Source: a virus. From it: a stretch of DNA of 64,000 nt. The stretch spans positions 1-64,000 of IMG/VR virus record IMGVR_UViG_3300042898_003677, one strand, 5' to 3'. The position numbers and the translations under genes are program-made. Below the pieces are notes generated by a model, which was given only the letters and a program-made list of their open reading frames with translations, ran no database searches and was not told the origin of the DNA. How positions within the stretch are numbered: the first letter of the stretch is position 1; each line of letters opens with the position of its first letter. This document shows positions 6,142-62,398 of this stretch, piece after piece.

Positions 6142-9100
6142 TTAGAATATTATTCTTGTATTAACTTTAACATCCCAATCTCCTACTGAAACACCAGCTT
6201 GAAGTTGAACGTCAGCACCTACGACTACAACTCTAAACTCTATACCGAGTGTTGAACCTCCTAAGTCAGGTGTTGAGTATTCGGTGAATTCTGCAAAACT
6301 ATCATTCCAAACACCCATAACAACACCACTTCTTCTATAATTTAAGTTATGTTCTATAACAACGTATTCAAAATGACAACTGCTACCTGTTGAACTTGGG
6401 AATGACTCTATAACTGTTGTACCAGGACTTACGGTTGCGTAATCTACAGTTTGAGTTCTTTGACCTCCGTAAAGTGTTAAATACTGTTGGTCATATGTCA
6501 AACCACTTTCAGCGATTGCTCCATTTGCAGTTCCATCAGAAGTTAACACTCTTGTTAATGATGGATTTGTAACTGCGGTAAACCCTGTTCCAGAAGTTCC
6601 ACTTGAACCTGAACTACCTGAAGTTCCTGACGAACCTGAGCTTCCTGAAGTTCCACTTGAACCTGAAGAACCAGAAGTTCCTGATGAACCTGAACTTCCT
6701 GATGTTCCACTTGAACCTGATGTTCCTGAAGAACCACTTGAACCTGACGAACCTGATTGACCTATACCTGCGACTTGGATTAACACATCGTCAGCGTTTG
6801 CCGGTACCCAATCACTTCCTGATAAGTAATCAAGTGCAAATTCCCAATAACTACCATTGTCAGCACCATTACCATTTTGTGTATAGTATATTACATCTGA
6901 ACCACCAACTAATCTTGTAATTTTCCAAAGTGTACCATTACCTAATGTTCCATAAATCGCACTATAGTTAGGTGTATTTGATAATGGAGTTTCACCAATT
7001 AATAGTGTAAACGGTGTTATTGGAAACCCGTCAGCCGGTACTGCATTTCTAACTTTTTGATTTCCAGGACTTCCTGTAGTATAATCCCAAATATTATCAA
7101 TAATATAACCTGAAGAACCTGATGTTCCTGATGAGCCAGATGTTCCTGAGCTACCGCTAGTTCCTGAAGAACCGCTAGTTCCACTTGAACCTGATGTTCC
7201 TGAAGAACCTGAGCTTCCGCTAGTTCCTGAAGAACCGCTAGTTCCACTTGAACCTGATGTTCCTGAAGAACCTGAGCTTCCGCTAGTTCCTGAAGAACCA
7301 CTTGAGCCAGATGTTCCTGAAGAACCGCTAGTTCCACTTGAACCTGATGTTCCTGAAGAACCTGAGCTTCCACTAGTTCCTGAAGAACCACTTGAGCCAG
7401 ATGTTCCTGAAGAACCTGAGCTTCCACTAGTTCCTGAAGAACCACTTGAGCCAGATGTTCCTGAAGAACCGCTAGTTCCACTTGAACCTGAAAGTCCTGT
7501 AGTTGTAACACACCAATAATAAACATCTGGTAATAAAGGTGCTCCAGTACCTGTTCCTCCAATATATGTAACACTAAAGGTAATTCCACCTCCACCAATT
7601 GTTGGGGTATTATTTAATTGATAAATGTAAGTTCCTGATGGTGTGGTAATTATTATTTCTGTACCAGCACCAACATTACTCCAAAAACCGCTTCTATTTA
7701 CACCATTATAATCATTAAATAAAGTCTTAATAGATGTTGCTAAAGTCCAATCGATATTGTTTACCACTTGAGCCTGACCTTGAACTGTCGGTACACTTGT
7801 TATGTGGTCATAAGGGAAACAATTACCATCAATACCTGATGTTCCTGATGAGCCACTTGTTCCTGACGAACCTGATGTACCACTTGAACCTGAACTTCCG
7901 CTAGTTCCGCTTGAACCTGATGTTCCTGACGAACCGCTAGTACCCGAAGAACCTGATGTTCCGCTAGTTCCTGATGAACCTGATGTTCCACTAGTACCTG
8001 ATGAACCTGAAGTTCCGCTAGTACCCGAAGAACCTGATGTTCCTGATGAACCTGAAGTTCCGCTAGTTCCTGATGAGCCACTTGTTCCTGACGAACCTGA
8101 TGTTCCTGATGAACCTGAAGTTCCGCTAGTACCTGATGAACCTGAAGTTCCGCTAGTTCCTGATGAGCCACTTGTTCCTGACGAACCTGATGTACCACTT
8201 GAACCTGAACTTCCGCTAGTTCCGCTTGAACCTGATGTTCCTGACGAACCGCTAGTTCCTGATGAACCTGATGTTCCACTAGTACCTGATGAACCTGAAG
8301 TTCCGCTAGTACCCGAAGAACCTGATGTTCCCGATGAACCTGAAGTTCCGCTAGTTCCTGATGAGCCACTTGTTCCTGACGAACCTGATGTTCCTGATGA
8401 ACCTGAAGTTCCGCTAGTACCTGATGAACCTGAAGTTCCGCTTGTACCTGATGAACCACTTGTTCCTGAAGAACCTGATGTTCCGCTTGTACCTGATGAA
8501 CCTGATGTACCACTTGAACCTGAACTTCCGCTAGTTCCGCTTGAACCTGATGTTCCTGACGAACCGCTAGTACCCGAAGAACCTGATGTTCCGCTAGTTC
8601 CTGATGAACCTGATGTTCCACTAGTACCTGATGAGCCACTTGTTCCTGACGAACCTGATGTTCCTGATGAACCTGAAGTTCCGCTAGTACCCGAAGAACC
8701 TGATGTTCCCGATGAACCTGAAGTTCCGCTAGTTCCTGATGAGCCACTTGTTCCTGACGAACCTGATGTTCCTGAAGAACCTGAAGTTCCAGATGTTCCA
8801 CTAGTTCCTGAAGAACCTGATGTTCCTGAAGTACCACTTGTTCCCGAAGAACCTGAAGTACCACTAGTTCCTGATGAACCTGACGAACCTGAAGTTCCCG
8901 AAGAACCTGATGTTCCAGATGTTCCGCTAGTTCCTGAAGAACCTGATGTTCCTGAAGTACCACTTGTTCCCGAAGAACCTGAAGTACCACTAGTTCCCGA
9001 AGAACCTGATGTTCCAGATGTTCCGCTAGTTCCTGAAGAACCTGATGTTCCTGAAGAACCTGACGAACCTGATGTTCCCGAAGAACCTGATGTTCCAGAT

Positions 9101-12100
9101 GTTCCGCTAGTTCCTGAAGAACCTGATGAACCTGAAGAACCTGAAGTTCCATTTGTACCGCTTGTTCCTGAAGAACCTGAAGTACCACTAGTTCCTGATG
9201 AACCTGACGAACCTGATGTTCCCGAAGAACCTGATGTTCCAGATGTTCCGCTAGTTCCTGAAGAACCTGATGTTCCTGAAGAACCTGATGTTCCACTAGT
9301 TCCTGATGAACCACTTGAACCTGAAGTTCCGCTAGTACCTGATGAACCTGATGTTCCGCTTGTTCCTGATGAACCTGAAGAACCTGAAGTTCCATTTGTA
9401 CCGCTTGTTCCTGAAGAACCTGATGAACCTGATGTTCCACTAGTTCCTGAAGAACCACTTGAACCTGAAGTTCCGCTAGTACCTGATGAACCTGATGTTC
9501 CGCTTGTTCCTGATGAACCTGAAGAACCTGAAGTTCCATTTGTACCGCTTGTTCCTGAAGAACCTGAAGTTCCGCTAGTTCCTGAAGAACCTGATGTTCC
9601 TGAAGAACCTGATGTTCCTGAAGAACCTGACGAACCTGATGTTCCCGAAGAACCTGATGTTCCAGAAGTTCCGCTAGTACCTGATGAACCTGATGTTCCG
9701 CTTGTTCCTGATGAACCTGAAGAACCTGATGTTCCACTAGTTCCTGAAGAACCACTTGAACCTGAAGTTCCGCTAGTACCTGATGAACCTGATGTTCCGC
9801 TAGTTCCTGAAGAACCTGATGAACCTGAAGAACCTGAAGTTCCATTTGTACCGCTTGTTCCTGAAGAACCTGATGAACCTGATGTTCCACTAGTTCCTGA
9901 AGAACCACTTGAACCTGAAGTTCCGCTAGTACCTGATGAACCTGATGTTCCGCTTGTTCCTGATGAACCTGAAGAACCTGAAGTTCCATTTGTACCGCTT
10001 GTTCCTGAAGAACCTGAAGTTCCGCTTGTTCCTGAAGAACCTGAAGTTCCGCTAGTACCTGATGAACCTGATGTTCCGCTCGTTCCTGATGAACCTGAGC
10101 TACCTGATGTTCCGCTCGTTCCTGATGAACCTGATGTTCCGCTCGTTCCTGATGAACCTGAAGTTCCATTTGTACCGCTTGTTCCTGAAGAACCTGATGT
10201 TCCGCTCGTTCCTGATGAACCTGAGCTACCTGATGTTCCGCTCGTTCCTGATGAACCTGATGTTCCGCTTGTTCCTGATGAACCTGAAGAACCTGAAGTT
10301 CCGCTAGTTCCTGATGAACCTGATGAACCACTTGAACCTGAAGTTCCATTTGTACCACTTGTTCCTGATGAACCTGAGCTACCTGATGTACCAGAAGTTC
10401 CTGAAGAACCTGAAGTTCCGCTCGTTCCTGATGAACCTGAAGAACCTGAAGTTCCACTAGTTCCTGACGAACCTGAAGTTCCGCTAGTACCTGATGAACC
10501 TGATGTACCACTTGTTCCTGACGAACCTGATGTTCCTGACGAACCACTTAAACCTGAAGTTCCGCTAGTACCTGACGAACCTGATGTTCCTGACGAACCA
10601 CTTGAACCTGAAGTTCCGCTAGTACCTGACGAACCTGAAGTTCCATTTGTACCACTTGTTCCTGATGAACCTGAGCTACCTGATGTTCCTGAAGAGCCAG
10701 ATGTTCCATTTGTACCGCTTGTTCCTGATGAACCTGATGTTCCATTTGTACCGCTTGTTCCTGATGAACCTGAAGTTCCACTTGAACCTGATGTTCCTGA
10801 AGTACCATCAGCACCGCTTACACCTGATGTTCCGCTCGTTCCTGAAGAGCCAGATGTACCATTTGTACCGCTTGTTCCCGATGAACCTGATGTTCCGCTC
10901 GTTCCTGAAGAACCTGATGTACCATTTGTACCGCTTGTTCCTGAAGAACCTGATGTTCCGCTAGTTCCTGATGAACCTGAAGTTCCGCTCGTTCCTGATG
11001 AACCACTTGAACCTGAAGTTCCATTTGTACCGCTTGTTCCTGAAGAACCTGATGTTCCGCTCGTTCCTGATGAACCTGAAGTTCCGCTTGTTCCTGATGA
11101 ACCTGAAGAACCTGAAGTTCCATTTGTACCGCTTGTTCCCGATGAACCTGATGTTCCGCTCGTTCCTGATGAACCACTTGAACCTGAAGTTCCATTTGTA
11201 CCGCTTGTTCCCGATGAACCTGATGTTCCGCTCGTTCCTGAAGAACCTGATGTACCATTTGTACCACTTGTTCCTGATGAACCTGAAGAACCTGAAGTTC
11301 CACTAGTTCCTGACGAACCTGAAGTTCCGCTAGTTCCTGATGAACCACTTGAACCTGAAGTTCCATTTGTACCACTTGTTCCTGATGAACCTGAGCTACC
11401 TGATGTACCAGAAGTTCCTGAAGAACCTGAAGTTCCATTTGTACCACTTGTTCCTGATGAACCTGAGCTACCTGATGTACCAGAAGTTCCCGATGAACCT
11501 GAAGTTCCGCTTGTTCCTGATGAACCTGATGTTCCGCTTGTTCCTGATGAACCTGATGTTCCGCTTGTTCCTGATGAACCTGAAGTTCCGCTCGTTCCTG
11601 ATGAACCACTTGAACCTGAAGTTCCGCTAGTACCTGAAGAACCACTTGAACCTGAAGTTCCATTTGTACCACTTGTTCCTGAAGAACCACTTGAACCTGA
11701 AGTTCCATTTGTACCGCTTGTTCCCGATGAACCTGAAGTTCCGCTCGTTCCTGATGAACCACTTGAACCTGAAGTTCCATTTGTACCGCTTGTTCCTGAA
11801 GAACCGCTTGAACCTGAAGTTCCATTTGTACCGCTTGTTCCTGAAGAACCGCTTGTTCCTGAAGAACCGCCTGTTCCTGATGAACCTGAAGTTCCACTTG
11901 TTCCTGATGAACCTGAAGTTCCACTTGTTCCTGAAGAACCTGAGGAACCGCCTGTTCCTGACGAACCACTAGTTCCTGACGAACCACTAGTTCCTGAAGT
12001 TCCGTCAGCACCACTTACACCTGATGTTCCTGATGTTCCTGAAGAACCTGATGTACCATTTGTACCGCTCGTTCCTGATGAACCACTTGAACCTGATGTA

Positions 12101-13227
12101 CCATTTGTGCCGCTTGTTCCTGATGAACCTGATGTACCATTTGTACCGCTTGTTCCTGAAGAACCCGATGTACCATTTGTGCCGCTTGTTCCTGATGAAC
12201 CTGAAGTTCCGCTCGTTCCTGAAGAACCTGATGTTCCGCTAGTTCCTGATGAACCACTTGAACCTGAAGTACCAGATGAACCTGATGTTCCACTAGTACC
12301 ATTGATACCACTAATACCAGATGTTCCTGAAGTCCCACTTGTTCCTGAAGAACCAGATGAACCTGAAGTTCCCCCTGTTATTGTAACTGTTATTGCACCG
12401 TCACCATCATTAGTAACAGAAGCACCATTGAATGTTATACCAGTGACATTACTTACGGTTGTAACTCCGTCTCCAACTGTTAAAGGACTACCTCCTCCTG
12501 AGGTAAATCCTGTAATTTGAATGTCGTCACCAAGTGAATTTGTTAATGTTAAAGTTTGTGTACCGGAATTATAAGTTCCACCTGTAATTGGCGCAGTAAA
12601 TCCTGAAATTGTAATAGTACCACCTGTATTATTGTATAAATCTAAATCTGAAGTTCCTGAGAAATAAGTACCACCTGTAATTTGTACATCACTACCCCAA
12701 AATATTTGCCATCTGGCATTATTCTTAGTTACCCCACCAACACCTTCAATTGTTGAGCCTGTCCAAGCATCAAGAAGGGCCGCTCCTTGTGGCGTATCAT
12801 CATAAACCTCATAACCACTACCTAAATCAATGATAGAACCAGCAGTTTCAGCATCATCCCACATTGACGTAAATCCTGTCATCGTGTATTGGTACACAGT
12901 GTCTGTCTCTTGGACATACACCTGCATACCTAATCTTCTACGACCTGAAGAAATACCATCGTTATTTAATGTTAGCGTGTTTGGTAATGAATAAGGTACG
13001 TTATAAGTTAAGTTAATAGGAATTGAGTTTCCTGAGTAGTAAACAACACCCCCATTAATTAAAATGTCATTTGGAATTATGAAATCTAGGTCAGATAAGG
13101 AGTAAACTTCCATATATCCACCAATTCCAAGTACACTAAAATTTGTACCGGTATTATTTTCTCTAATGACTGAATCAGGAGTCTGAAGAATGGTTGTTGA
13201 TACGGGGTTTTTATATTGAAAACTCAT
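6142..13227 (-). CDS. Giant Gly-X-Y repeat fibre protein 1 (2361 aa) with interspersed domains
   Basis: A probable long tail fibre or whisker. The head (residues 1 to about 290) is non-repetitive and rich in Gly, Thr and beta-type segments. A long array of Gly-(Thr/Ser)-(Ser/Asn) triplets follows (about 12360-7840). Two globular islands of about 115 residues then interrupt the array (about 7838-7490, beginning GNCFPYDHIT; about 7110-6750, beginning GYIIDNIWDY), each followed by more triplets. The last 150 residues are a unique C-terminal domain, probably the tip, ending in KVNTRIIF. No enzymatic motif is visible. Two GVSGADG interruptions occur within the array. Without Pro the triplets are unlike ordinary collagen; a polyglycine-II-like or other extended rod is possible. 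The gene has its own late motif and terminator. It is similar in design to the neighbouring fibre 2 and may be a paralogue. Confidence 0.88.
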   Translation of the reverse strand: MSFQYKNPVSTTILQTPDSVIRENNTGTNFSVLGIGGYMEVYSLSDLDFIIPNDILINGGVVYYSGNSIPINLTYNVPYSLPNTLTLNNDGISSGRRRLGMQVYVQETDTVYQYTMTGFTSMWDDAETAGSIIDLGSGYEVYDDTPQGAALLDAWTGSTIEGVGGVTKNNARWQIFWGSDVQITGGTYFSGTSDLDLYNNTGGTITISGFTAPITGGTYNSGTQTLTLTNSLGDDIQITGFTSGGGSPLTVGDGVTTVSNVTGITFNGASVTNDGDGAITVTITGGTSGSSGSSGTSGTSGTSGISGINGTSGTSGSSGTSGSSGSSGTSGTSGSSGTSGTSGSSGTSGTNGTSGSSGTSGTNGTSGSSGTSGTNGTSGSSGSSGTSGTNGTSGSSGTSGTSGVSGADGTSGTSGSSGTSGSSGTGGSSGSSGTSGTSGSSGTSGTSGSSGTGGSSGTSGSSGTSGTNGTSGSSGSSGTSGTNGTSGSSGSSGTSGTSGSSGTSGTNGTSGSSGSSGTSGTNGTSGSSGSSGTSGTSGSSGSSGTSGTSGSSGTSGTSGSSGTSGTSGSSGTSGTSGSSGTSGTSGSSGSSGTSGTNGTSGSSGTSGTSGSSGSSGTSGTNGTSGSSGSSGTSGTSGSSGTSGTSGSSGSSGTSGTNGTSGSSGTSGTSGSSGTSGTNGTSGSSGSSGTSGTSGSSGTSGTNGTSGSSGSSGTSGTSGSSGTSGTSGSSGTSGTNGTSGSSGSSGTSGTSGSSGTSGTSGSSGTSGTNGTSGSSGTSGTSGSSGTSGTNGTSGSSGTSGTSGVSGADGTSGTSGSSGTSGSSGTSGTNGTSGSSGTSGTNGTSGSSGTSGSSGSSGTSGTNGTSGSSGTSGTSGSSGSSGTSGSSGTSGTSGLSGSSGTSGSSGTSGTSGSSGTSGTSGSSGTSGTSGSSGSSGTSGTSGSSGTSGTSGSSGSSGTSGTNGTSGSSGSSGSSGTSGTSGSSGSSGTSGTSGSSGTSGTSGSSGSSGTSGTSGSSGTSGTNGTSGSSGTSGTSGSSGTSGTSGSSGSSGTSGTSGSSGTSGTSGSSGTSGTSGSSGTSGTNGTSGSSGSSGTSGTSGSSGTSGTSGSSGSSGTSGTSGSSGSSGTSGTNGTSGSSGSSGSSGTSGTSGSSGTSGTSGSSGSSGTSGTSGSSGSSGTSGTSGSSGTSGTSGTSGSSGTSGSSGSSGTSGSSGTSGSSGTSGTSGSSGTSGTNGTSGSSGSSGTSGTSGSSGTSGTSGSSGSSGTSGTSGSSGSSGTSGTNGTSGSSGSSGTSGTSGSSGTSGTSGSSGSSGTSGTSGSSGTSGSSGTSGTSGTSGSSGTSGSSGSSGTSGTSGSSGTSGTNGTSGSSGSSGSSGTSGTSGTSGSSGTSGSSGSSGTSGSSGTSGTSGTSGSSGTSGTSGSSGTSGTSGTSGSSGTSGTSGTSGSSGTSGSSGSSGTSGTSGSSGTSGTSGTSGSSGTSGTSGTSGSSGTSGSSGTSGSSGTSGTSGSSGTSGSSGTSGTSGSSGTSGSSGTSGSSGTSGTSGSSGTSGTSGSSGTSGSSGTSGSSGTSGSSGSSGTSGSSGTSGTSGSSGTSGSSGTSGTSGSSGTSGTSGSSGTSGSSGTSGSSGTSGTSGSSGTSGSSGTSGTSGSSGTSGTSGSSGTSGSSGTSGSSGTSGSSGSSGTSGSSGTSGSSGTSGTSGSSGTSGTSGSSGTSGSSGTSGSSGTSGTSGSSGTSGSSGTSGTSGSSGTSGTSGSSGTSGTSGSSGTSGSSGTSGSSGTSGSSGSSGTSGSSGTSGSSGTSGIDGNCFPYDHITSVPTVQGQAQVVNNIDWTLATSIKTLFNDYNGVNRSGFWSNVGAGTEIIITTPSGTYIYQLNNTPTIGGGGITFSVTYIGGTGTGAPLLPDVYYWCVTTTGLSGSSGTSGSSGTSGSSGSSGTSGSSGSSGTSGSSGSSGTSGSSGSSGTSGSSGTSGSSGTSGSSGSSGTSGSSGSSGTSGSSGTSGSSGTSGSSGSSGTSGSSGTSGSSGTSGSSGTSGSSGTSGSSGYIIDNIWDYTTGSPGNQKVRNAVPADGFPITPFTLLIGETPLSNTPNYSAIYGTLGNGTLWKITRLVGGSDVIYYTQNGNGADNGSYWEFALDYLSGSDWVPANADDVLIQVAGIGQSGSSGSSGSSGTSGSSGTSGSSGSSGTSGSSGSSGTSGSSGSSGTSGSSGSSGTSGTGFTAVTNPSLTRVLTSDGTANGAIAESGLTYDQQYLTLYGGQRTQTVDYATVSPGTTVIESFPSSTGSSCHFEYVVIEHNLNYRRSGVVMGVWNDSFAEFTEYSTPDLGGSTLGIEFRVVVVGADVQLQAGVSVGDWDVKVNTRIIF
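6590..6760 (-). repeat. Short Gly-X-Y array before the C-terminal domain of fibre 1
   Basis: A coding array of GTS/GSS triplets links the second island to the C-terminal domain. Confidence 0.85.
7115..7490 (-). repeat. Gly-X-Y array between the two islands of fibre 1
   Basis: A coding array of GTS/GSS triplets. Near-identical blocks of 60 to 100 bp recur within it, for example the stretches starting near 7145, 7215 and 7275. Confidence 0.8.
7840..12360 (-). repeat. Main Gly-X-Y array of fibre 1, with a 315-bp higher-order period
   Basis: About 4.5 kb of triplet-coding repeat. A distinctive block reading cctgatgtaccacttgaacc on the plus strand recurs at 7871, 8186 and 8501, that is every 315 bp (105 residues), inside longer similar blocks with a few indels. 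Asn-containing triplets (GTN) are common from about 9140 to 12200 and absent nearer the C-terminal end. Confidence 0.85.
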
Positions 13228-13263: not shown

Positions 13264-15477
13264 TTATACTAGCGTGCCTCCTCGGAAATACCAAGCGTTT
13301 CCGTTGTTAGTTATGGTCAATCCACCCGCAGGTTTTGTAACATATACTCTGTAAGTACCCGCAGGTATATTTGCTGAGCCTGTGTAGTTTATTATTAAAC
13401 TATTATAAATTGAACTCACAACCGTATCAGTTGCCGGTGGGTTAGCATTACCATTCAAGATTGTAGAATACTTTTGTCCGTTAGTCGCTCCCGTTGATAC
13501 AAACCAAACATAGTACGCCACTTCAGTAGGATTTGGTACTGTCGCAGCAGGAACTTGGATTGTTTGGAATCTATAAGCAACTATCGGGTTACCAAAAGCG
13601 TCATTACCACCACTTGTTGTTGAAATTGGCGCTGTGAATATTGCTGGTTCAGATACACCCCATCCACTGTAGGCAATATAGGTGTTCATTTGTGTATTAA
13701 ATGTCGCCTGTATTGTTGATGGTGAAGTAATGTTAAATCCTCTGAACGCACTTCCTTGTGCCAGCATATAGTTGTTTAACGCAGTTCTGATTGTTGCGTC
13801 GTTTCTATCGATGAACAAATACGCCTGTATTGGTTGTGCCGATGGAGTTGGTGTTGGAGTAGTTGTAGTGGTTGGCGTTGGTGACGCAGTATTAGTAGGT
13901 GTTTGAGTTGGAGTATTTGTTGCGGTTTGTGTTGGTGTTGGAGTCGATGTCTGTGTTGGAGTTGGTGTCTTTGTTTGTGTTGGTGTTTGTGTTGGTGTTG
14001 AAGTATTAGTTGCGGTATTTGTAGGCGTAGGAGTATTAGTCGCAGTTTGCGATGGTGTTGGTGTTTGTGTCGGTGTTGGAGTCTGAGTTCTCGTTGGTGT
14101 TTGTGTTGGGGTCTGAGTTCTCGTTGGTGTTTGTGTTGGTGTTTGTGTTGGACTAGCAGTAATAGACGGTGTTGGAGTGTTAGTCGATGTTGCGGTTTGT
14201 GTTGGGGTTGGCGTATTAGTTGCTGTTTGTGTTGGAGTATTAGTCGCAGTATTAGTTGGAGTATTAGTTGCCGTATTAGTTGGCGTCTGAGTTGGAGTAT
14301 TAGTGGCAGTATTGGTTGGTGTTTGAGTATTAGTCGCAGTATTAGTTGGCGTTTGCGTTGGCGTTTGAGTTGCAGTATTAGTTGGTGTAGGTGTTGGAGT
14401 CTGAGTTGCGGTATTAGTTGGAGTCTGAGTTGGACTAGCAGTAATAGACGGTGTTGGTGTCGGTGTGATATCAGATGTAACTGAAGGTGTAGGTGTATTT
14501 GTTTGTGTCGCAGTTTGTGTTGGTGTAACCGTATTAGTCGCAGTAATTGTAGGTGTCTGCGTAGCAGTTTGTGTTGGTGTATTAGTGGCAGTTTGAGTTG
14601 GTGTCGCGGTTTGAGTTGGTGTGTTAGTTGCAGTTTGTGTTGGTGTGTTAGTTGCAGTTTGTGTTGGTGTGTTAGTTGCAGTTTGTGTTGGTGTGTTAGT
14701 TGCAGTATTAGTTGGTGTTTGGGTAACCGTTGGTGTTTGAGTAGGCGTAGAAGTATTGGTCGGTGTTTGAGTAACCGTTGGAGTTTGTGTTGGAGTTGAA
14801 GTTTGTGTCGGAGTTTGTGTTCTTGTCGCTGTTTGTGTCGGAGTTTGGGTTCTTGTTGGAGTCTGTGTAGGTGTTGCAGTCCTTGTGTTAGTTGGGGTCT
14901 GTGTTGGTGTTGAAGTATTTGTTGCGGTGTTAGTTGGCGTGTGAGTGTTAGTTGGAGTCTGTGTTGGTGTTGAAGTTGATGTATTTGTTGGCGTAGGTGT
15001 TTTAGTTTGGGTTGCAGTATTAGTTGGTGTGTGAGTTTGGGTATTTGTAGGTGTATTTGTTGGAGTATGCGAAGGGGTATTTGTTACCGTATTAGTAGGT
15101 GTGATAGTCGGTGTTACAGATGGTGTCGCGGTAGATGTCGGGCTAACAGTTTGTGTTGGCGTACTTGTGGCACCTGGAGTCGTAGAAGTAGGTGTTGGTG
15201 TTGGCGTAGTTGTTGGCGTATAAGTTGGGGTAGGTGTTGGTGTTGGGGTGAAATCAAAGCACACCACATAACCATCAATCATTTGTTGTCTGGTTATATC
15301 AGTGGCATATGCCGGCTCAGAAGTTGAATTTATGAATATATCAAATGGACCAATTGCGTTAGAACTAGCTGGTATTCTAACAATATAACAAGATGGCCCG
15401 GTGACTGTAATCTGTTTTTGAACCTCAGTATTACACCCCGTTGCCTTATTGACACAAATTATAGTTTCTAACGACAT
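13264..15477 (-). CDS. Thr-Pro-rich linker protein, fibre or adhesin (737 aa)
   Basis: Three parts are visible. A head of about 75 residues with several Cys ([16 protein letters not shown]) ends in a Cys shortly before the linker. Residues about 77-545 are a Thr-Pro-Asn-Gln-Ser linker made of TPT, TNT and TQT units. The C-terminal domain of about 190 residues begins [10 protein letters not shown] and ends YFRGGTLV. The linker should form an extended, stiff, protease-resistant rod holding the C-terminal domain away from the particle. The C-terminal domain is not recognised and would be the candidate receptor-binding part. The gene lies between the SprB-repeat protein and the giant fibres, so a host-contact role is inferred. 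Short Thr-Pro runs also occur in two other proteins of this window. Confidence 0.75.
13840..15250 (-). repeat. Thr-Pro coding repeat region
   Basis: Low-complexity coding DNA built on a 6-bp unit for Thr-Pro, with longer periods caused by TNTPTQT-type units. For example, the block reading tgcagtttgtgttggtgtgt (plus strand) is repeated in tandem around 14630-14710. Confidence 0.85.
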
Positions 15478-15582: not shown

Positions 15583-15909
15583 TTAATCGACCGTAATACT
15601 ATAATCACAAGACTCGGCAGTAACAGAAATTGTATAGGTGCAAGATGCGATTTCCACAGAAATATCAAATCCACATCCATAGCTACAATCAATAATTTCA
15701 AACTTTTTACATCCTCTGTTATCGATTAAAGTAACCATAACAGCAGGAGCATTATTGAATAAACTTGGTGGATAAAAATTTGCTGCGGGAGGTATTAAAC
15801 CTGTGTTGGTAATTGTACCAATTAATGATTCATTATTTCCATAAACATCAGAAACATAAACATATATTGGAGTTTCTCCCGTAACCGCTTCAATTCTTAT
15901 CTGTGTCAT
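15583..15909 (-). CDS. Small Cys-containing structural protein (108 aa)
   Basis: No family is recognised. The start is taken as the ATG at 15909, which overlaps the TGA of the SprB-repeat gene in an ATGA arrangement and so suggests translational coupling. An in-frame TTG lies three codons upstream. The sequence is rich in Val, Thr and Ile (TPIYVYVSDVYG, ISVTAESCDYSITVD) with five Cys in the second half, suggesting a small all-beta domain with disulfides. As the last gene of the 22260-15583 operon it is probably a virion accessory protein or a partner of the SprB-repeat adhesin. Confidence 0.65.
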   Translation of the reverse strand: MTQIRIEAVTGETPIYVYVSDVYGNNESLIGTITNTGLIPPAANFYPPSLFNNAPAVMVTLIDNRGCKKFEIIDCSYGCGFDISVEIASCTYTISVTAESCDYSITVD

Positions 15910-18374
15910 TGTAGGCAAATAATGTCATAAACTATAAGTAACTCAACAGTAATTTCTTGGTCAGTTAAAGGACCTCCTTGAGTTGCCTGAATAGTAATTT
16001 GATTGGTTAATGGGTTAACTGTAACATTTGAAACCCCGTTAATACTTTCCAACATTGTGGTAATTGTGTTGTACCATAAATTATCACTTGGTACATCAAC
16101 CAATGTTGTTCCTGTATAGAATGTTGTTGTTAAAATAGTGTTGAGTGGTTGAACTTGGACTTTAGCGGTATAAATTGCGGTGTTAATCGAACAATCCGTA
16201 TTACCTGATGTTAAGTCGTTAAATCCTTCAACTAATATTTGATTGATACCTCGTTTGGTTGGTGAAACGATATTGAAGGTTTCTGAACCCATTGTATAAC
16301 ATTGGAGTGATACATACGTCGCATCACAATCGATAATCGTTTGTGCTGCGTTTGAACAACCATTAGAGTCAGTTACAATCAATCCATAAGTACCACCCGT
16401 TAAACCTGAAACTGTTATCTGTTGTGGATTACCCGCAACATTATCAGACCAATCAAATGTAAATGGTGGAACTCCACTAGAAATAAACGCTGTAATTGTT
16501 CCTTCATTACCAGTTCCACAAGACGTACTGTATAATGAGAACTGAACACTTGGCGTTGTTGTAATTGTGAATGGTTTGTATTGTGTACATCCTGAAGCAT
16601 CCGTAACACTTAAAACGTGTTGACCAGGCGCAACATTATTAAACGTAACCGCAGTTAAAGGCGTATCAATAATTGTTTGAATACCGTCAATAGAATAATC
16701 ATATGGACTTGTTCCACCTGAAGATAAAACAATATTAATACTACCATAAGGATTTCCACAAGTAGAACCCGAAGTTTGTAATGCAATTGTAAATTTATCT
16801 TGTGTTAAAATGGTAACATCTTGTGTGAATAAACAACCCGAACTATCTTGAACAAAAATTGTATAGTCACCTCCAGTTAAATCAGAATAGGTATACTGTG
16901 TAAAGTTAGATGATTGTGATGTGGTGTTACCTTGGTCATCAACTAATGTATATGTATAGGGTGCAGTTCCACCCAATAAACTAACCAAGATTAATCCGTT
17001 GTTAGAATTACAATAAGAGTTTTGTGTTGATACATTAACGGATTGTATACCATTAGGACTTGTTAAAGTTGTTTCTTGTGTGAATGAACAAAGACCAGCG
17101 TCCGTAACAGTAAATCCATAGTTACCACTACTTAACCCTGAAAGTGTATATGTCTGACTATAACTAATTTCTTGAGCCCCCGTAGACGCTGAATAATAGT
17201 ATGGCGCAGTTCCACCAGTAATTGTTAAGGTTAATGAACCATTGGCATTGAAGCAACTCGGGGTTGTTGCAGAAAATGAACCAAACCCAACAGGTTCAAC
17301 TCGGGTGACAATTCCTTGTTTGGTTAAACTACACCCGTTGTAGTCTGTAACCGTAACCGAATAAACACCTTCAGTTAATCCTGTTATACTGTCTGTGGTT
17401 TGTCCATTACTCCATAGGTAAGAATAGGGTCCTATACCCGTTTGTCCTGTAACATAAATCTTACCAATATTGTTCTGACCACAAGCAGCGTTTGGTACCA
17501 CATAGAGTCCATAATCGTAAGTAACCGAACTTTCGATTATGAAGTCTGAACTTCTACAAGTACAACCACCCAAGTCAACTGCCTCCAAGTAGTAAGTTCC
17601 CGCAGATAAACTTGAGAACACTACCGTGTTTGTGTTGACCGTTTGAGAAGCAACAAAATCGTCATCAGTTGTATACAAATAATAATTAACCGAGGAATAA
17701 ACACTTGAGCAAGTACCCGTCACCGCTCCATTGTCTGAACCACAAGTTGTTGATTGTACGCCTGTGACTGTTGTACAACATCCTGAAGATACAGGAATGT
17801 TGATATAAAATTCATTATTTATTGGCAATGTAGAGTCGTTCGCTCTAACCAAGTAGTTTCCGGCTGCAAGTCCTGTCTTGTAATCTCCAAGACCTAAATT
17901 AGGACTATACCAATCAAAGGTATAAGGTGGAACTCCTCCTGTTCCAAATATCTGAACTGTACCCGTTCCATTGTCACAAGCTCCAGTTACCGACAGATAA
18001 TAATCAAACGCCCCACCATTACCAAAAGGTCCTGATGGTGTAACACTCGGTGTAATACTTGGGGTAATTGATGGAGTCGGAGTTAGTGTTTGTGTTGGTG
18101 TAACAGTAACTGTTGGAGTTGGTGTTACGGTTGGTGTTGGCGTTGGTGTGGATGTCGGACACGGAACCGATGCCTTACAAACCGCACAACTAGGATAATC
18201 AGGATTTAAGAACGTGTCAGAACCAGGTCCCGAAGTCGGTACCGAAGTTCTCGCATAACAAGTACTATTGTAAACAACACAATCGCCCAAACTAAAGTTT
18301 GTTAACTCAATCTCAAAAACTCTATAGTCTGAGGAGTCACAACAGTTTTGGAAAAAATAATAACCTAAAGCCAT
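15906..18374 (-). CDS. SprB-repeat adhesin-like tail protein (822 aa)
   Basis: A Cys-rich head of about 70 residues is followed by a Thr-Pro linker (about 73-115), then seven tandem units of 60 to 85 residues, then a C-terminal region of about 150 residues. The best unit contains GPYSYLWSNGQTT, GLTEGVYSVTVTDYNGC; others show GGTAPYTY and GVPPFTFDW. This pattern (P-Y-x-a-x-W-x-x-G, G-x-Y-x-v-x-V-T-D-x-x-G-C) is the SprB repeat, known from gliding adhesins and other large surface proteins of Bacteroidetes. Cys at conserved places suggest disulfides. The protein is probably a receptor-binding or surface-attaching fibre acquired from a flavobacterial host or shaped to resemble its proteins. The ATG overlaps the upstream TAA by one base. 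Confidence 0.8.
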   Translation of the reverse strand: MALGYYFFQNCCDSSDYRVFEIELTNFSLGDCVVYNSTCYARTSVPTSGPGSDTFLNPDYPSCAVCKASVPCPTSTPTPTPTVTPTPTVTVTPTQTLTPTPSITPSITPSVTPSGPFGNGGAFDYYLSVTGACDNGTGTVQIFGTGGVPPYTFDWYSPNLGLGDYKTGLAAGNYLVRANDSTLPINNEFYINIPVSSGCCTTVTGVQSTTCGSDNGAVTGTCSSVYSSVNYYLYTTDDDFVASQTVNTNTVVFSSLSAGTYYLEAVDLGGCTCRSSDFIIESSVTYDYGLYVVPNAACGQNNIGKIYVTGQTGIGPYSYLWSNGQTTDSITGLTEGVYSVTVTDYNGCSLTKQGIVTRVEPVGFGSFSATTPSCFNANGSLTLTITGGTAPYYYSASTGAQEISYSQTYTLSGLSSGNYGFTVTDAGLCSFTQETTLTSPNGIQSVNVSTQNSYCNSNNGLILVSLLGGTAPYTYTLVDDQGNTTSQSSNFTQYTYSDLTGGDYTIFVQDSSGCLFTQDVTILTQDKFTIALQTSGSTCGNPYGSINIVLSSGGTSPYDYSIDGIQTIIDTPLTAVTFNNVAPGQHVLSVTDASGCTQYKPFTITTTPSVQFSLYSTSCGTGNEGTITAFISSGVPPFTFDWSDNVAGNPQQITVSGLTGGTYGLIVTDSNGCSNAAQTIIDCDATYVSLQCYTMGSETFNIVSPTKRGINQILVEGFNDLTSGNTDCSINTAIYTAKVQVQPLNTILTTTFYTGTTLVDVPSDNLWYNTITTMLESINGVSNVTVNPLTNQITIQATQGGPLTDQEITVELLIVYDIICLQ

Positions 18375-21352
18375 TAGTTACAATTGATACTTAAGTTTAT
18401 GCAGACATTTAATTCTACCGAGTCTTGTAAATTCTGAGTCGCACAACTCAGATTTGTTATTGTCAACTTATTACCGTTTAGGGTATAAGTAAAACCATAT
18501 TGGAATAATTTGTATAAATTATCTATCAAGGTTGTTCTCCACATAAAGTTTGTTGGTGCATCGTTGATTCCATAACCCTGATAGAAGTATTGATTAATAA
18601 TTACCTGTCCCCCAATTTTTAACTCCAAATACCACTGAGAATTAATTGAGTTCTGAATACACTGTGTCAGTGTTAAACCTGACTCTGTCAAGAAATTATC
18701 AACTCTGTTGTTCAATATGGACGTGAAACTTGAAACATTAGTATCTCCATTCAACCAAGGGTAAATAAAGAAGTCCACATACTCCGTATTACAATCGTAA
18801 TCGAAAATGTTTGTTGTGATGAAACAAGGTTCAGCAGGAACAGGAATGATTTGACAACCCCTTTGTCTTCTATAAACATATTTCTGTCTGTGGAAAATAG
18901 AGTTTTCTAATCTTGTTCCTGAATTCCAAATTGTTGTGGCGGGTATCATATTTTCAATCAACTTCATCCAATATGGACCTAACGAGTTTACATATTCAAT
19001 AAGTTTTTGATACGTGTATTTGTTGTTAGGTAATCCAACTGTCTGTTCTGATTGAAGGTATTTCCAAAATATAGATTGCAGTGTTAGATATCCGCCAGTC
19101 TTACCGTCACTTGAATACATCCTATTACGAGTGTTAATCATATTCTGCCAAAAAGTCTGAGCAAATTCAAAGAATGTTTTGCTCTGAGGTTGGGGGTCAA
19201 TAAACGTATCATCAACACCATATGGGAATATGAAATCGGCAGTAAATCCTGATGATGGAATTGGATAGTCGTATTTGTTTGACTGGTCCCAAACATCGTA
19301 AGTAAAACCTTGTCCAACGTTTAAGAATATGTCAACGTTTTTAACGTTAAGAACTAGCTTATCGTTATCGGTATAGTAATATGAATTAAAACCACCTTCA
19401 ACTGAAACTCTTAACTTATTGTCATCATCTAACCAAGATTTTTTATTATCAACAACTTTAACAATTTTGAATCCCTCTTTCATATATGGGAATTGTTCAA
19501 ATCTTTGAAGGTAAATTCCACCATAAGTGAAAGGTTGTAATTGTGTTTGGATATTGGTGTTGTCCCCCGTAAATGTTAAACCATTTAATTGTAATTCGTT
19601 AGGACTTCTGTGTTGTGGAGTTTGTTCATACCAACCAGCGCCTTCTTGGAAGAATGTTGAGTTTGTTCCCAATCCTGGTGTTGGTGCTTTAGGCCAACCA
19701 AAAATATCTACAGGATAATCATCCCTCAATATTGTCACATCATCATATTGTGTATTTGTTGTGTAGGCACTATACAAAACACCTTTCAATTTATAAGTGT
19801 TTGCACTATCTAAACTTGGTACCGTATTTACGTATGTTCCACCTGATAACTGAGCGAATTGCGTATTAAATTTCGCCATATCAATTCTTTGGTCAGCCAA
19901 GTAAACGTGCTCATTATAATCAATCAAAGCATCAGGCGCCCCAATTAATCTTAATAAGAATTCTACGGACCTTCTTGTTCCTTTAGATTTGAATAGGTAG
20001 GCAGAATTTAAAATAAGGTTTCTATAGAACTGATAGTTTAACTCTGTAGGTGTTAATGACGCCGCATAACCAGGGTATTCACTTATACCTGTATTACCAA
20101 ATACAGAATCTAAAAAGTTTTCATTTGTAATTGGTGAGAAATTGTTAGACCATCCTAAAGTTTTTGATAAGTTAACCAATAACTGTGATGGAATATCGTT
20201 TTGAGGAACATAATTAACGTTATTCATAAATGCCAGTGCATCAATGAATTGTTTTATTTGGTCAAAACTTCTACCATATAGTTGTAAAACTTTTTCAACT
20301 TTATGGTCCATAGTATCAAATTCTTTAATTGAATCCGTAACTAAAAATCTTGATATTAAGTTTGTTTTGAATGAATCCAAATACTCAGCCATATCAGCCA
20401 ACTTGGCAAGATAAGTATCAAAAGATGCCGACCTAATGTCTAAGTTCCAAGGACCATCTTTTGGCCAAGTAACCGTGTCGTAAGCAGTATAAAACTGACC
20501 CGCATCGTTCTGTCTTGGGACTTGGAAATTTGCAGTGTATGGTGGTTGGATTTGTCTATTAAGTAAGAATTTCTCAATCTCATCAAAATTCTCTAAAAAT
20601 ACTTTGTCCGTAATATAGTCGTTTAACTTGACAAGGTAGTCGTCATATATTGTTGTTGCGGTTCCAAATGGTTGACCTGAAACAATCAGTTGAATCTGAC
20701 CTGAACTTAAACTTTGTGCTGGTGTAAATCCGATTACTTGATAATCAATTCCAGAGAACGTTAAAGCGTAATTCAAATATGACTTTGTCATATCTCGATA
20801 TTCCGACGCAATAATTTCACGAGCGGCTAAATTTGTTGTCGCACTTACCGAAAAATCTATTATAAACGGATTATTAATTCTTTCAACAGGGATTTTAAAT
20901 ATTGTTTCGTCTTCAACAGAATCATAAACAATATTTGTCGCCGTAGCGCCAGTTGTAAAATCTGTCATTAGATAATACACATCCAATGAAGCAGGAAAAA
21001 AATTAATTATCTTTTGGATTGATACTGAAAATCTTTTTGCCAAAGAACCATACAACGAAAAGTTTAATACTTGGGAGACATCGTAATTAGGATACACTCT
21101 GAATTGTGTTGCCTGTATTCTTCTACTCTCATTTAAATCGTTGATGTCTAACCCTTCCAAATTTATTGGTTCGGAAAAAGTTCCGATTGAAAAGGTTCTG
21201 TTAACTTTTTCGGTTACACTTGTTGTAAAGTCAAAAACAGCCGAGGTAAGACCTCCCCCATCAACAACTTGGAATCCAACGATGTTGTCAAAAGCACCTG
21301 TTCCATTTCCTGGTCTTGGTGGGTAAAAAAACTTGTTGCTGTTAATTGCCAT
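18374..21352 (-). CDS. Large baseplate/tail structural protein (992 aa)
   Basis: No exact family is recognised. A central segment (FLLRLIGAPDALIDYNEHVY, about residues 465-485) resembles the motif seen in phage tail proteins that carry tail fibres on the baseplate. There is no signal peptide or membrane segment. Aromatic residues are frequent. The C-terminal 150 residues contain several Cys (GCQIIPVPAEPC, DYDCNTEY). Its start overlaps the upstream stop (TAATG), and its stop overlaps the next gene in the same way, so the 302-, 992-, 822- and 108-residue proteins are made from one tightly coupled operon. An adaptor between baseplate and the SprB-type adhesin is the most likely role, by position. 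Confidence 0.6.
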   Translation of the reverse strand: MAINSNKFFYPPRPGNGTGAFDNIVGFQVVDGGGLTSAVFDFTTSVTEKVNRTFSIGTFSEPINLEGLDINDLNESRRIQATQFRVYPNYDVSQVLNFSLYGSLAKRFSVSIQKIINFFPASLDVYYLMTDFTTGATATNIVYDSVEDETIFKIPVERINNPFIIDFSVSATTNLAAREIIASEYRDMTKSYLNYALTFSGIDYQVIGFTPAQSLSSGQIQLIVSGQPFGTATTIYDDYLVKLNDYITDKVFLENFDEIEKFLLNRQIQPPYTANFQVPRQNDAGQFYTAYDTVTWPKDGPWNLDIRSASFDTYLAKLADMAEYLDSFKTNLISRFLVTDSIKEFDTMDHKVEKVLQLYGRSFDQIKQFIDALAFMNNVNYVPQNDIPSQLLVNLSKTLGWSNNFSPITNENFLDSVFGNTGISEYPGYAASLTPTELNYQFYRNLILNSAYLFKSKGTRRSVEFLLRLIGAPDALIDYNEHVYLADQRIDMAKFNTQFAQLSGGTYVNTVPSLDSANTYKLKGVLYSAYTTNTQYDDVTILRDDYPVDIFGWPKAPTPGLGTNSTFFQEGAGWYEQTPQHRSPNELQLNGLTFTGDNTNIQTQLQPFTYGGIYLQRFEQFPYMKEGFKIVKVVDNKKSWLDDDNKLRVSVEGGFNSYYYTDNDKLVLNVKNVDIFLNVGQGFTYDVWDQSNKYDYPIPSSGFTADFIFPYGVDDTFIDPQPQSKTFFEFAQTFWQNMINTRNRMYSSDGKTGGYLTLQSIFWKYLQSEQTVGLPNNKYTYQKLIEYVNSLGPYWMKLIENMIPATTIWNSGTRLENSIFHRQKYVYRRQRGCQIIPVPAEPCFITTNIFDYDCNTEYVDFFIYPWLNGDTNVSSFTSILNNRVDNFLTESGLTLTQCIQNSINSQWYLELKIGGQVIINQYFYQGYGINDAPTNFMWRTTLIDNLYKLFQYGFTYTLNGNKLTITNLSCATQNLQDSVELNVCINLSINCN

Positions 21353-22260
21353 TATCCTGTAATCGTCGTGAAGTTTTTAGTGAAATCAATGTTATTACCT
21401 CTATCTTGACGAACTTCATATAACAACGCATTAAATTGGTCACGAATTTCAAACAAGTTGTATTGTTTGTAAATGTTGTTTTGACTATCATACATTGTGT
21501 ATACACCGTCATCAATAGATTTGGTTTGGTTACCGTAAAGGGCAATTGCAAGTGATGAGATATCGTATTCAACAATATCAATTTCAACTGTCACAGGATT
21601 GAAGTAGGTATTTGTGATAATGATACCTTGTCCTGGCTGTCCAATAAATGGTGTTGCGTTAGGTTTATTTGTTGGTGATGAAGATGGTGTTACTGTTAGG
21701 AATAATAAATTTGTTACCCCATCAACATATCTATATCTAACCGCCTTTTGAGTTGTGTTTATTTGATTTGTAACCACAGGTTCACAATAAAAACAAGATG
21801 TAACAATTCTAAAAAAGTTTGGTATTTTAGAACCATCAGCATTCAAATACTCAATTCTAAAACCTATAAGACCTTGTGGTACAAATTTATTTCTATATTG
21901 TGAAGGCACGTTATTTAGGTCTACAATAATACCTTTTACGTTAGGTAATGCACTAAGAACACCACAATCAGTAATTGTGGTTCTAATTTGTGCAGGTCTA
22001 ATCATCAAAGTGTAGATTCCTATGTCAGTAAATTCATCTGCAGGTAATGTTAGGTTGTATAAACCTCCCAAAATCTCAACATTAGCATTTCCACCTGTTT
22101 GTTCATTATTGAAGTATGGTCTCAATATTGAAGGTGCGTCAAGGGTCTTGAGAACAAAATCCTCAGTCTCATCTCTCGATGGCGTGTAATTTAAGATTAT
22201 CTCAACATCTTCGGGTGAGACATCTGCCGGTCTAATCGTTCCGTATGTTCCAATTGCCAT
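21352..22260 (-). CDS. Baseplate-associated protein of unknown function (302 aa)
   Basis: Not recognised. The N-terminal part (IRPADVSPEDVEIILNYTPS) and the regular alternation of polar and Val/Ile/Tyr residues suggest a soluble, mostly beta protein. It is the first gene after a late motif (22278-22285) and heads the operon that ends at the terminator near 15550. The stop codon overlaps the start of the 992-residue protein. A virion role is inferred from the operon alone. Confidence 0.55.
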   Translation of the reverse strand: MAIGTYGTIRPADVSPEDVEIILNYTPSRDETEDFVLKTLDAPSILRPYFNNEQTGGNANVEILGGLYNLTLPADEFTDIGIYTLMIRPAQIRTTITDCGVLSALPNVKGIIVDLNNVPSQYRNKFVPQGLIGFRIEYLNADGSKIPNFFRIVTSCFYCEPVVTNQINTTQKAVRYRYVDGVTNLLFLTVTPSSSPTNKPNATPFIGQPGQGIIITNTYFNPVTVEIDIVEYDISSLAIALYGNQTKSIDDGVYTMYDSQNNIYKQYNLFEIRDQFNALLYEVRQDRGNNIDFTKNFTTITG

Positions 22261-31165: not shown

Positions 31166-33004
31166 TTAAGAGAAGGAAACATTTTGGAAATTCTTAACAC
31201 GAACCTTAATATCTTTTTGTGGGTATCTAATTTGATACACTTGGTTAGGTTCTGCAAATATGGTATCATCTACAGGTCTGATAATTTTTAACTCAGGGTC
31301 AGCATATGCCATCGAAGTTTGTGATGATGAATACTGTGCACCAACTTTGTTTTCAACTATTATTTCAGTTACCGTAATAACACCATTTTGGTTTTGAATA
31401 ATACTTTTTAATTCTGATAGATATACATTCTGACCAAGTTGTCTTACTTGAGGGTTAAAGTAATCTCCAATTTTATTAACAACATCGGTAACAATTTGAC
31501 CTGAGTTTTGAGACGCGTCTAATACAACAAAAACCTCCACAGCCAAATCTATAACTTCGGCAGAACCAACAACTACATAATCATTCATCATTCGATAGTT
31601 TGATAAATAAGTTGCAACATTTTGTCGTAAAGTATTTGATACGAGTGGTGTTAATTTTCCTGAAGTATCATAAGACAATAAGTTAATTTGTATTTTGTTA
31701 TTGTTTTCAGTGATTGATACTTTTGCCGGTGCACCAAACTGACTTGGCATTGTTCTTAAAATTGCTTCGTAGTCATTTACAGTAACCGCTCTTTTTTGTG
31801 CTGCAAAGTTATATGTAACATAGTTTCTAACTTCTTCAACATTTGGCGCATTAGCACCTCCAATAGCCGCTATCGGGTTGGTACATCTTAATGAATTAAT
31901 CACACTACTGTTGGTTTGTTGTGAAGGACCATTAACAAAGAATGATACCGTTCCAACTTGGTTAATAACATTAACCCCCAAGTTAGTTGCAAGTCCACCA
32001 CCAACTCTATACTGAACAAATAAGGTCGTATTAGGAACTAATGTTGAACCTAATGAAAAGTTATTTGATAAAGTTTGTAGGTTAACTGGGACACCTAAAT
32101 TGGTAAAGGCATTTAATTGGTCTTGTGCTGAGGTTGTTCCACCACCAAAGGTCATCTTACAGAAACCTTCAGGTGTAAATTCAGAAATGAATTTGTTATT
32201 AGTTTGTAGATACCTACCTACTTTAATACCCGGGTCGTCTGAAACTTTAGTTGGGTCTTCGATGAAGATTCTATCTTCAGCCAAAGCATCCACCTCATAC
32301 CATCTATTCGCTAAACCTAAAAATTCCGCAGCTGTTGGTGTGTTTGTATAGTTTGTACCATTTTTCAATAATACACTTGTAATACCTAAAACATTCTTAT
32401 CAGGTAAGAATAATTCATAGAACGGTTTTACATCGGCAGGTCCAATAACTTTTTTGAAAACTTTTGTTAATCCATTAACAACTTGTTCTCTTTTAGTAAT
32501 CGTATAGTTAATCAAGTTTCCATTAGCGTCAAAGTTTGGAATCTTGAGTCTATTAGGAAATCCTTGTGAGTTGTATGGTGAAGCGAAATCAATCTCGTAT
32601 TGGTTTTCAAAAACAATACCCGCACCAAAAACTTGGGACCCTCTGTTTAGAATACCCAAATATCTTTCATCTTCTTTGTCACCATATGCTGGTACAGTAA
32701 TTGAGAAATCAACAACTGACACTGAAGGTCTTTGACCTGGAACTTTTAAACCATATGTTCTGGCAATGTTATAAATTGATGAACGTTGTTGTGCATATTG
32801 TAATACAGTTTCTTGTATGCTTCTATCAATATGGTAATGTAGGTTATCGGCAACCGCAGCATTCAAATCTAAGAATACTGAAAATACTGACGCGTCGTTG
32901 AAATCCTGTATTAATTCAGGATAATATGTTCTAACATAATTTTGTAACTCCAGTCTTATACTTTCGTAATCCCTTGAAGTGTATGAGATTTTATTATTTG
33001 CCAT
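31166..33004 (-). CDS. Baseplate wedge protein gp6-like (baseplate J family, 612 aa)
   Basis: The N-terminus (KISYTSRDYESIRLELQNYV, then FNDASVFSVFLDLNAAVADNLHYHIDRSIQETVL) is the hallmark of the T4 gp6/baseplate-J family: a Y-T-S-R-D-Y start, a helix with D-x-x, and a region that arranges wedge dimers. The central part contains beta-type segments and a conserved GGANAPNVEEVRNYV region followed by AVTVNDYEAIL, also typical of baseplate J. Length fits T4 gp6 (660 aa). In the virion gp6 forms the inner baseplate ring joining wedges around the hub. It is encoded directly after gp25, as in many contractile phages. Confidence 0.92.
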   Translation of the reverse strand: MANNKISYTSRDYESIRLELQNYVRTYYPELIQDFNDASVFSVFLDLNAAVADNLHYHIDRSIQETVLQYAQQRSSIYNIARTYGLKVPGQRPSVSVVDFSITVPAYGDKEDERYLGILNRGSQVFGAGIVFENQYEIDFASPYNSQGFPNRLKIPNFDANGNLINYTITKREQVVNGLTKVFKKVIGPADVKPFYELFLPDKNVLGITSVLLKNGTNYTNTPTAAEFLGLANRWYEVDALAEDRIFIEDPTKVSDDPGIKVGRYLQTNNKFISEFTPEGFCKMTFGGGTTSAQDQLNAFTNLGVPVNLQTLSNNFSLGSTLVPNTTLFVQYRVGGGLATNLGVNVINQVGTVSFFVNGPSQQTNSSVINSLRCTNPIAAIGGANAPNVEEVRNYVTYNFAAQKRAVTVNDYEAILRTMPSQFGAPAKVSITENNNKIQINLLSYDTSGKLTPLVSNTLRQNVATYLSNYRMMNDYVVVGSAEVIDLAVEVFVVLDASQNSGQIVTDVVNKIGDYFNPQVRQLGQNVYLSELKSIIQNQNGVITVTEIIVENKVGAQYSSSQTSMAYADPELKIIRPVDDTIFAEPNQVYQIRYPQKDIKVRVKNFQNVSFS

Positions 33005-62100: not shown

Positions 62101-62398
62101 AAATTCTTGTTACGAATAATTGGTTAGATTGTTGTAGGTAAGACTTTGCAATGTAAGCCGCCTCATATTTAGGGATTTGAGTTCCGATAAATTTTACTGG
62201 TTCTGTTCCACCAAAAAATGTTTGGAATTCATCGTAATTTGTAATGAAGATTGGTTCGAAGGCTGGACCCTTTAAAGTCTCCCCAACTAATCCCAAAGTT
62301 GTAACACCTACGCTTTGTGCTACGAAAGATAAGTCTGTTTCTGAAGTATAAACGCCGGGTGAGACGAAAACCTTTTGATTTGCTTGTGCTGTTGCCAT
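59198..62398 (-). CDS. Contractile tail sheath protein, gp18-like (1066 aa)
   Basis: It forms the contractile sheath around the tube. The N-terminus (KVFVSPGVYTSETDLSF, then GLVGETLKGPAFEPIFITNYDEFQTFFGG) is typical of phage sheaths. The C-terminus also fits: RLNVRRLLLQARKLISAVAVRLLFEQNDE, then a domain with GLYDFRVTVSSSPEDLDRNTLTGKIYLKPTKALEFIDIEFFI. At 1066 residues it is well above T4 gp18 (659 aa). The extra length lies in the middle and is Ser/Thr/Tyr/Gly-rich, probably surface-exposed insertion domains. It has its own late motif and terminator. Confidence 0.95.
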   Translation of the reverse strand: MATAQANQKVFVSPGVYTSETDLSFVAQSVGVTTLGLVGETLKGPAFEPIFITNYDEFQTFFGGTEPVKFIGTQIPKYEAAYIAKSYLQQSNQLFVTRILGLSGYDAGPSWSIRLIANVDGTTVGIDTGYAIPQNFTANFSGYSSGSTITFTSSLPSVLSNELNVQYTLADGSTSTYNSDITSFVQSISGNTNLSATTAVVYGAIPTTGYTNLDGTFTGLTNQFGCDSIDLEANDLTDGNNDTWFYAAFNPTTGNGYSGYSWDYAVSNYFTGASGTFYGTLSGSIYTYSGTAYTDYNNLVVATLRSRGISIYDANDHGMTYQVTGLTDLQMVTTGAYSGISQSPFATFQLSGATYQGSGFTFDVSFQSNNSNYITKVLGVTNFFKPRTQVPVFVEESYPGLLNYGYNKGYIRGIQPEMVALPEARDTSSTTTIAWYLDRYQTPKTPYVVSELRGNKVYKLFRFVSISDGNSANTEVKISIANLSFSNMTFDILVRDFFDTDANPVVYEKYTNCTMDPGSNSFVAKKVGSSDGEYPLNSAYIMIELSDEYVIDALPCGFYGLESRVYETASNPSPFAIIKNKYYYPGETVFDPPFGTTAGGSNIVTSSGDIVRRTYLGFSSSLGIDSDLLQYKGKQNPVTNWYLATESAPWNYLTQGFHMDSGATIVTIGDAFVTSGQAAFVCGVANFSDEPTTQENPYYFLYSRKYTMCFQGGFDGWDIYREFRTNQDRFALGASGFLQGAYPSVRYPNATGDGTFKRIVVANNTQDFANTDYYAYLLGILSFNNPESTNINVFATASIDYVNNSNLCELAIGMVSNERADSVYIVTTPDYNMYTPDANSQFEIIYPQEAVDNLDQTGIDSSYTATFYPWILTRDTVNNTQIYLPPTGEVCRNLALTDNISFPWFASAGYTRGLVNSIKARLKLTQEDRDTLYQGRINPIATFADVGTVIWGNKTLQVSDSALNRLNVRRLLLQARKLISAVAVRLLFEQNDEIVRQQFLDSVNPILDSIRRDRGLYDFRVTVSSSPEDLDRNTLTGKIYLKPTKALEFIDIEFFITPTGASFENI

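Follow-up and report, generated by a model that had tools for sequence, protein, structure and literature searches.

The DNA analyzed here (the window; 64,000 nucleotides) is the beginning of a 150-kb virus contig whose genes include those for a T4-like baseplate wedge, hub, tail tube and sheath, as well as UvsX, DnaB, a single-strand binding protein and a ribonucleotide reductase. The gene of interest (Table 1) starts with ATG and shares one base with the stop codon of the gene upstream. In its protein, the family HMM delineates seven consecutive units, at residues 122-198, 200-282, 287-359, 363-440, 444-525, 528-607 and 611-684; as divisions of the conserved core, the units extend over residues 122-196, 199-284, 286-358, 360-438, 442-523, 527-606 and 609-688. 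The gene is part of a conserved baseplate gene run, and the baseplate wedge, sheath, tube and hub genes all share its strand, in agreement with the tail operon location originally predicted. The N-terminal part of the protein is variable. The Cys-rich module has a match in one relative alone (L108), and most family members begin directly at unit 1 without it. The Thr-Pro linker may be found at either the N- or the C-terminal side in relatives; more generally, Thr-Pro-linked terminal modules vary across the family both in their presence and in the end they occupy, and the majority of members lack a tip module altogether. The conserved C-terminal domain had been overlooked in the original prediction.

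Table 1. Features of the seven-unit gene and of selected neighboring genes in the window
Feature	Coordinates	Strand	Remarks
Seven-unit gene, 822 aa	15906..18374	minus	ORF: Cys-rich N-terminal module, Thr-Pro linker, seven SprB-type units, C-terminal domain
Cys-rich N-terminal module, residues 1-72	18159..18374	minus	Variable
Thr-Pro linker, about residues 73-114	18033..18158	minus	Optional across the family
Conserved core, residues 122-822	15909..18011	minus	Seven units and C-terminal domain
C-terminal domain, ~134 aa, residues 689-822	15909..16310	minus	Homolog of the C-terminal end of the tail protein encoded upstream; putative anchor
Upstream partner gene, 992 aa	18374..21352	minus	Adjoins the seven-unit gene in nearly all relatives
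302-aa tail-operon protein	21352..22260	minus	Highly conserved; independent marker gene
Baseplate wedge subunit, T4 gp6-like	31166..33004	minus	Assigned from its position and a PHROG hit; first in the run of baseplate genes

The Pfam SprB profile (PF13573) matches the 822-aa protein with an E-value of 7.5e-24 (83.5 bits against a cut-off of 28), covering six stretches, four of which individually exceed the curated cut-off. All 36 aligned relatives match the same profile at E <= 0.01, and none of the Ig families Ig_2, Ig_3 and I-set was detected by Pfam in the 822-aa protein at E <= 0.1. The SprB profile also passes its gathering cut-off on the Ig-domain whiskers of Buttiauxella and Citrobacter phages (L183:1474-3762 and L184:1432-3993), proteins that are fitted better by Ig_3 (the Ig score of the whisker control is 7e-21). 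Therefore, a Pfam SprB match alone cannot distinguish SprB repeats from ordinary phage Ig whiskers, and SprB assignments in phages need a second test. We scored individual units against two models, one of bacterial SprB repeats, gathered with the phage-unit HMM, and one of whisker Ig domains, derived from a small set of 15 units from five related phages. The bacterial SprB model was preferred by every one of the 329 family units (median 52 versus 16 bits), and the Ig model by 15 of the 15 whisker units. On the Pfam result and the two-model scoring, we rejected the reading of the units as ordinary Ig-like domains. Thus, the units of the 822-aa protein are supported as SprB-type, and the original prediction of seven SprB repeats preceded by a Thr-Pro linker stands: the profile does match, and the units do not side with phage Ig domains.

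SprB and other SprB-repeat adhesins of Bacteroidota have the same repeat as the phage protein, including a cysteine pair (TxC ... DxxGC) that is present in 250 of 271 bacterial units and 267 of 329 phage units, although it is missing from unit 1 in all 47 family proteins. However, the bacterial arrays comprise from 1 to 47 detected units (median 17, with some ORFs cut by locus ends) and carry T9SS sorting domains, whereas the phage protein has exactly seven units and a C-terminal domain of its own. Whiskers (fibritin) of Straboviridae, virion proteins of T4-like phages, resemble the seven-unit protein in their array of tandem Ig-like units, and that of Buttiauxella phage GuL6 cross-matches Pfam SprB at 53.7 bits; they differ in their better fit to Ig_3, in the lack of the cysteine pair (0/15 units) and in the presence of Fibritin_C.

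The family to which the protein belongs is both widespread and uniform. Two scans of viral contigs yielded at least 94 loci (14 and 80, overlapping), which represent at least 47 non-redundant proteins including the one in the window. Among the matches listed, identity of the non-redundant relatives ranges from about 37 to 100% (47 proteins), and 47 of 47 have exactly seven units followed by the ~134-aa C-terminal domain. In a tree of units from 20 phages together with 271 bacterial units, the units at each position group together as a separate clade, whichever phage they come from; in an IQ-TREE analysis of five phages, support was 96-100 for six of the positions and 89/4 for unit 6. As an independent marker, chosen to avoid selecting for SprB, we used the neighboring 302-aa protein. 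Among its best 80 matches, the seven-unit gene was located about 3 kb downstream of the marker gene in all 59 loci with enough sequence, a count from which distant members may differ. Given the invariant seven-unit layout, the position-specific clades and the 59 marker loci, we conclude from sequence comparison that the seven-unit protein is an old and fixed core component of the tail. The same three observations led us to reject a recent date for the host adhesin capture that had been proposed. The comparison with bacterial units, also suggested in the original prediction, was informative as to the monophyly of unit positions across phages, but not as to the direction of movement: at the deep branching of phage and bacterial units, an AU test of a single origin of the seven units apart from the bacterial ones gave p 0.223 (72 columns), a value that neither establishes nor rejects it, and the unit trees indicate no direction of domain transfer between phages and bacteria. 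What can be said is that a domain family of host adhesins sits in the phage tail in a strictly fixed seven-unit form, and that the gene defines a core tail protein shared by an uncultured but widespread phage clade, whose hosts are very probably Bacteroidota.

The family is already present in public data under a label. A 714-aa protein of an uncultured Caudovirales phage (A0A6J5LD72, UniProt/BFVD), named 'SprB repeat' and without assigned function, is 33% identical across the whole core and seems to belong to this family, not to a separate kind. As far as we could find, the family is undescribed, and our literature search returned no publication in which SprB repeats are treated as tail proteins of phages. 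A SprB array is also encoded in LR756502.1, a 642-kb megaphage record labelled 'uncultured phage', where a 1675-aa protein with 15 SprB units lies around 514-519 kb (L182:4441-9465), near genes for SpoVR, rhomboid, gyrase A and glutamate synthase. In contrast to the seven-unit protein, it has PKD and T9SS type B sorting domains and lacks the phage C-terminal domain; judged by this composition, it is a host-type adhesin. Either it represents a real captured host adhesin or the record holds bacterial DNA.

The C-terminal domain links the seven-unit protein to the product of the adjoining gene. The 992-aa protein is kept at 44-66% identity in relatives, and its C-terminal end (~residues 860-992) is paralogous to that of the seven-unit protein, with an hhalign P of 2.3e-7 calculated for one comparison. 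The domain also matches the C-termini of 992-aa proteins by HMM in many relatives, and in two separate models both domains display the same helix-strand-strand-helix-strand-strand-strand order. None of the bacterial proteins of our set matches the phage domain at E 1. The simplest reading is that the two proteins have a shared attachment domain, by which they may be held in place. Since relatives may bear extra modules at either end, the idea that the C-terminus is buried is weakened.

AlphaFold modeling of residues 115-822 produced a chain of beta-sandwiches (mean pLDDT 82), whose inter-domain arrangement is not to be trusted because of the low pTM (0.32); the model of the 992-aa protein is poor except at the C-terminus (mean pLDDT 43). 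The core is thus predicted to be a flexible chain of Ig-like beta-sandwich domains. Among solved structures in PDB, the chain is matched best by fragments of GhpA, the grappling hook protein of Aureispira (E 6.5e-21, 16-19% identity); however, GhpA, a surface protein of a bacterium, has about 5000 residues, and the likeness is one of local fold only (TM-score about 0.2 over the chain). The best viral structural match is the 714-aa 'SprB repeat' protein mentioned above (E 3e-62). In PDB, the family profile matched gp24, a neck-whisker protein of a phage (E 4.4e-5), and gave weak matches to decoration proteins (E 0.014 and 0.068). A search of the tail proteins against solved structures by sequence gave no informative match, and in the 822-aa protein no known receptor-binding fold was identified.

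Drawing on the seven units and their family, the fixed layout, the operon position, the shared C-terminal domain, the absence of a T9SS signal and the predicted fold, we propose that the protein is probably a core structural tail fibre of a T4-like clade, a seven-domain rod anchored in the baseplate, with variable tips or weak surface binding. The seven Ig-like SprB-type beta-sandwich domains would form an extended rod, which would be incorporated into the virion and held there by the C-terminal domain, an anchor of the same kind as the C-terminal end of the neighboring baseplate-operon protein. The free part of the rod would carry optional, fast-changing modules on Thr-Pro linkers and might contact the host surface weakly and reversibly. 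The matches to gp24 and the decoration proteins, together with that to PHROG 2973 'Hoc-like head decoration' (E 9e-13), invite a different explanation, in which the protein decorates the surface of head, neck or tail in the manner of Hoc, pb10 or whiskers, keeping the phage near its hosts by non-specific sticking to polysaccharides and having no function in the baseplate. The PHROG match keeps a head or neck position under consideration, but the gene resides in the baseplate run, beside a protein with the same C-terminal domain, and the units are uniformly closer to bacterial SprB than to whisker Ig domains, so we consider decoration unlikely. The exactly seven units, the near-constant length, the separate constraint on each position and the absence of a tip module in most members would also suit a purely structural spacer that determines distances within the baseplate without binding anything. 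Such a role, however, fits poorly with the divergence of the units, for which the lowest identity between members is 21-43%, compared with 75-80% for the 302-aa neighbor in two distant members, and with the gain and loss of tip modules, reminiscent of adhesive fibres; we therefore regard it as quite improbable.

Which bacteria a tail fibre of this kind would meet can be judged from several features of the genome. A Shine-Dalgarno motif precedes only 1 of 25 genes in the window and 1 of 32 in Flavobacterium phage immuto, compared with 7 of 12 in enterobacterial phages (4/6 in Buttiauxella and 3/6 in Citrobacter phages). The closest named matches of the baseplate wedge, sheath and helicase are found in immuto and Mel-JY01, at about 27-33% identity. 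The rarity of Shine-Dalgarno motifs and the presence of immuto among the closest cultured phages point indirectly, but with high probability, to a Bacteroidota host, in keeping with the flavobacterial-type host that had been suggested. Mel-JY01 (PP395634.1, L181) is assigned to a cyanobacterium (Microcystis), yet it stands among the closest cultured relatives beside the Flavobacterium phage. Among the tail genes examined and the ORFs scanned, no seven-unit protein was found in either immuto or Mel-JY01, and two conserved tail-operon proteins had no match in the cultured phages searched. Bacterial loci with related arrays belong to Bacteroidota by title in 78 of 79 cases, the exception being a Nitrospinaceae MAG; one conserved tail-operon protein searched in 396 Bacteroidota genomes had no match.

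The proposed link to gliding motility fared less well. No T9SS sorting domain (TIGR04131 or TIGR04183; type A/B) was detected in the 822-aa protein at E <= 0.1, whereas 10 of 10 bacterial SprB controls have one. In F. johnsoniae, an sfGFP fusion containing no SprB sequence other than the 368-aa C-terminal region is propelled and binds SprF (PMC9143113), and thus the repeats are not the part of SprB that engages the motor. Use of the gliding machinery for hitching is therefore unsupported rather than impossible. On the other hand, gliding proteins play a part in how some flavobacterial phages adsorb (PMC13288928), and SprB itself possibly does so as well (PMC7345892). Contact with the host surface accordingly remains plausible and, if proved, would offer a starting point for learning how these phages locate gliding bacteria. 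The adsorption data and the grouping of the units with Bacteroidota SprB repeats are what speaks for a captured host adhesin module that attaches to the same surfaces or hitches to gliding; with the layout fixed across a diverged clade, the sorting domain missing and track coupling assigned to the SprB C-terminus, we find this view very unlikely. There is a small chance at best that the rod binds host SprB arrays, like with like, as the obligate first-contact fibre of the whole Bacteroidota phage clade and a look-alike of the host adhesin, and that movement of the adhesin brings the phages to a site of entry. Since bacterial members of the domain family are surface proteins, one could also imagine display on the infected cell, for example to block superinfection. 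This is extremely improbable: the 822-aa protein has no hydrophobic N-terminal stretch resembling a signal peptide (by simple hydropathy), core family members start with MA-x-F-x-Y, which is not signal-peptide-like either, the T9SS domain is absent and the gene sits in a run of tail genes.

Other products of the region have unusual features of their own. The 2361-aa protein encoded at 6142-13227(-) is built largely from triplet repeats of Gly-Ser/Thr-Ser (SGTSG-like), interrupted by small domains, and many related contigs stop in or near this region, perhaps because of assembly failure. The 737-aa protein at 13264-15477(-) has two globular ends around a very long Thr-Pro repeat. The small domain encoded at 15583-15918(-) can be recognized by eye downstream in relatives as well (L014:16984-17631 and L017:14317-15453), where it is the N-terminal head of Thr-Pro-linked proteins and possibly an adaptor for tip modules. 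The tail sheath at 59198-62398(-) has 1066 residues, of which most sheath matches span only ~713-1066; the N-terminal part is a large extension or insertion, partly common to LR756508 and Mel-JY01. Finally, single or paired SprB-like units occur in other tail-operon proteins of relatives (L014:17646-18767, L014:18789-20591 and L017:21585-22103).
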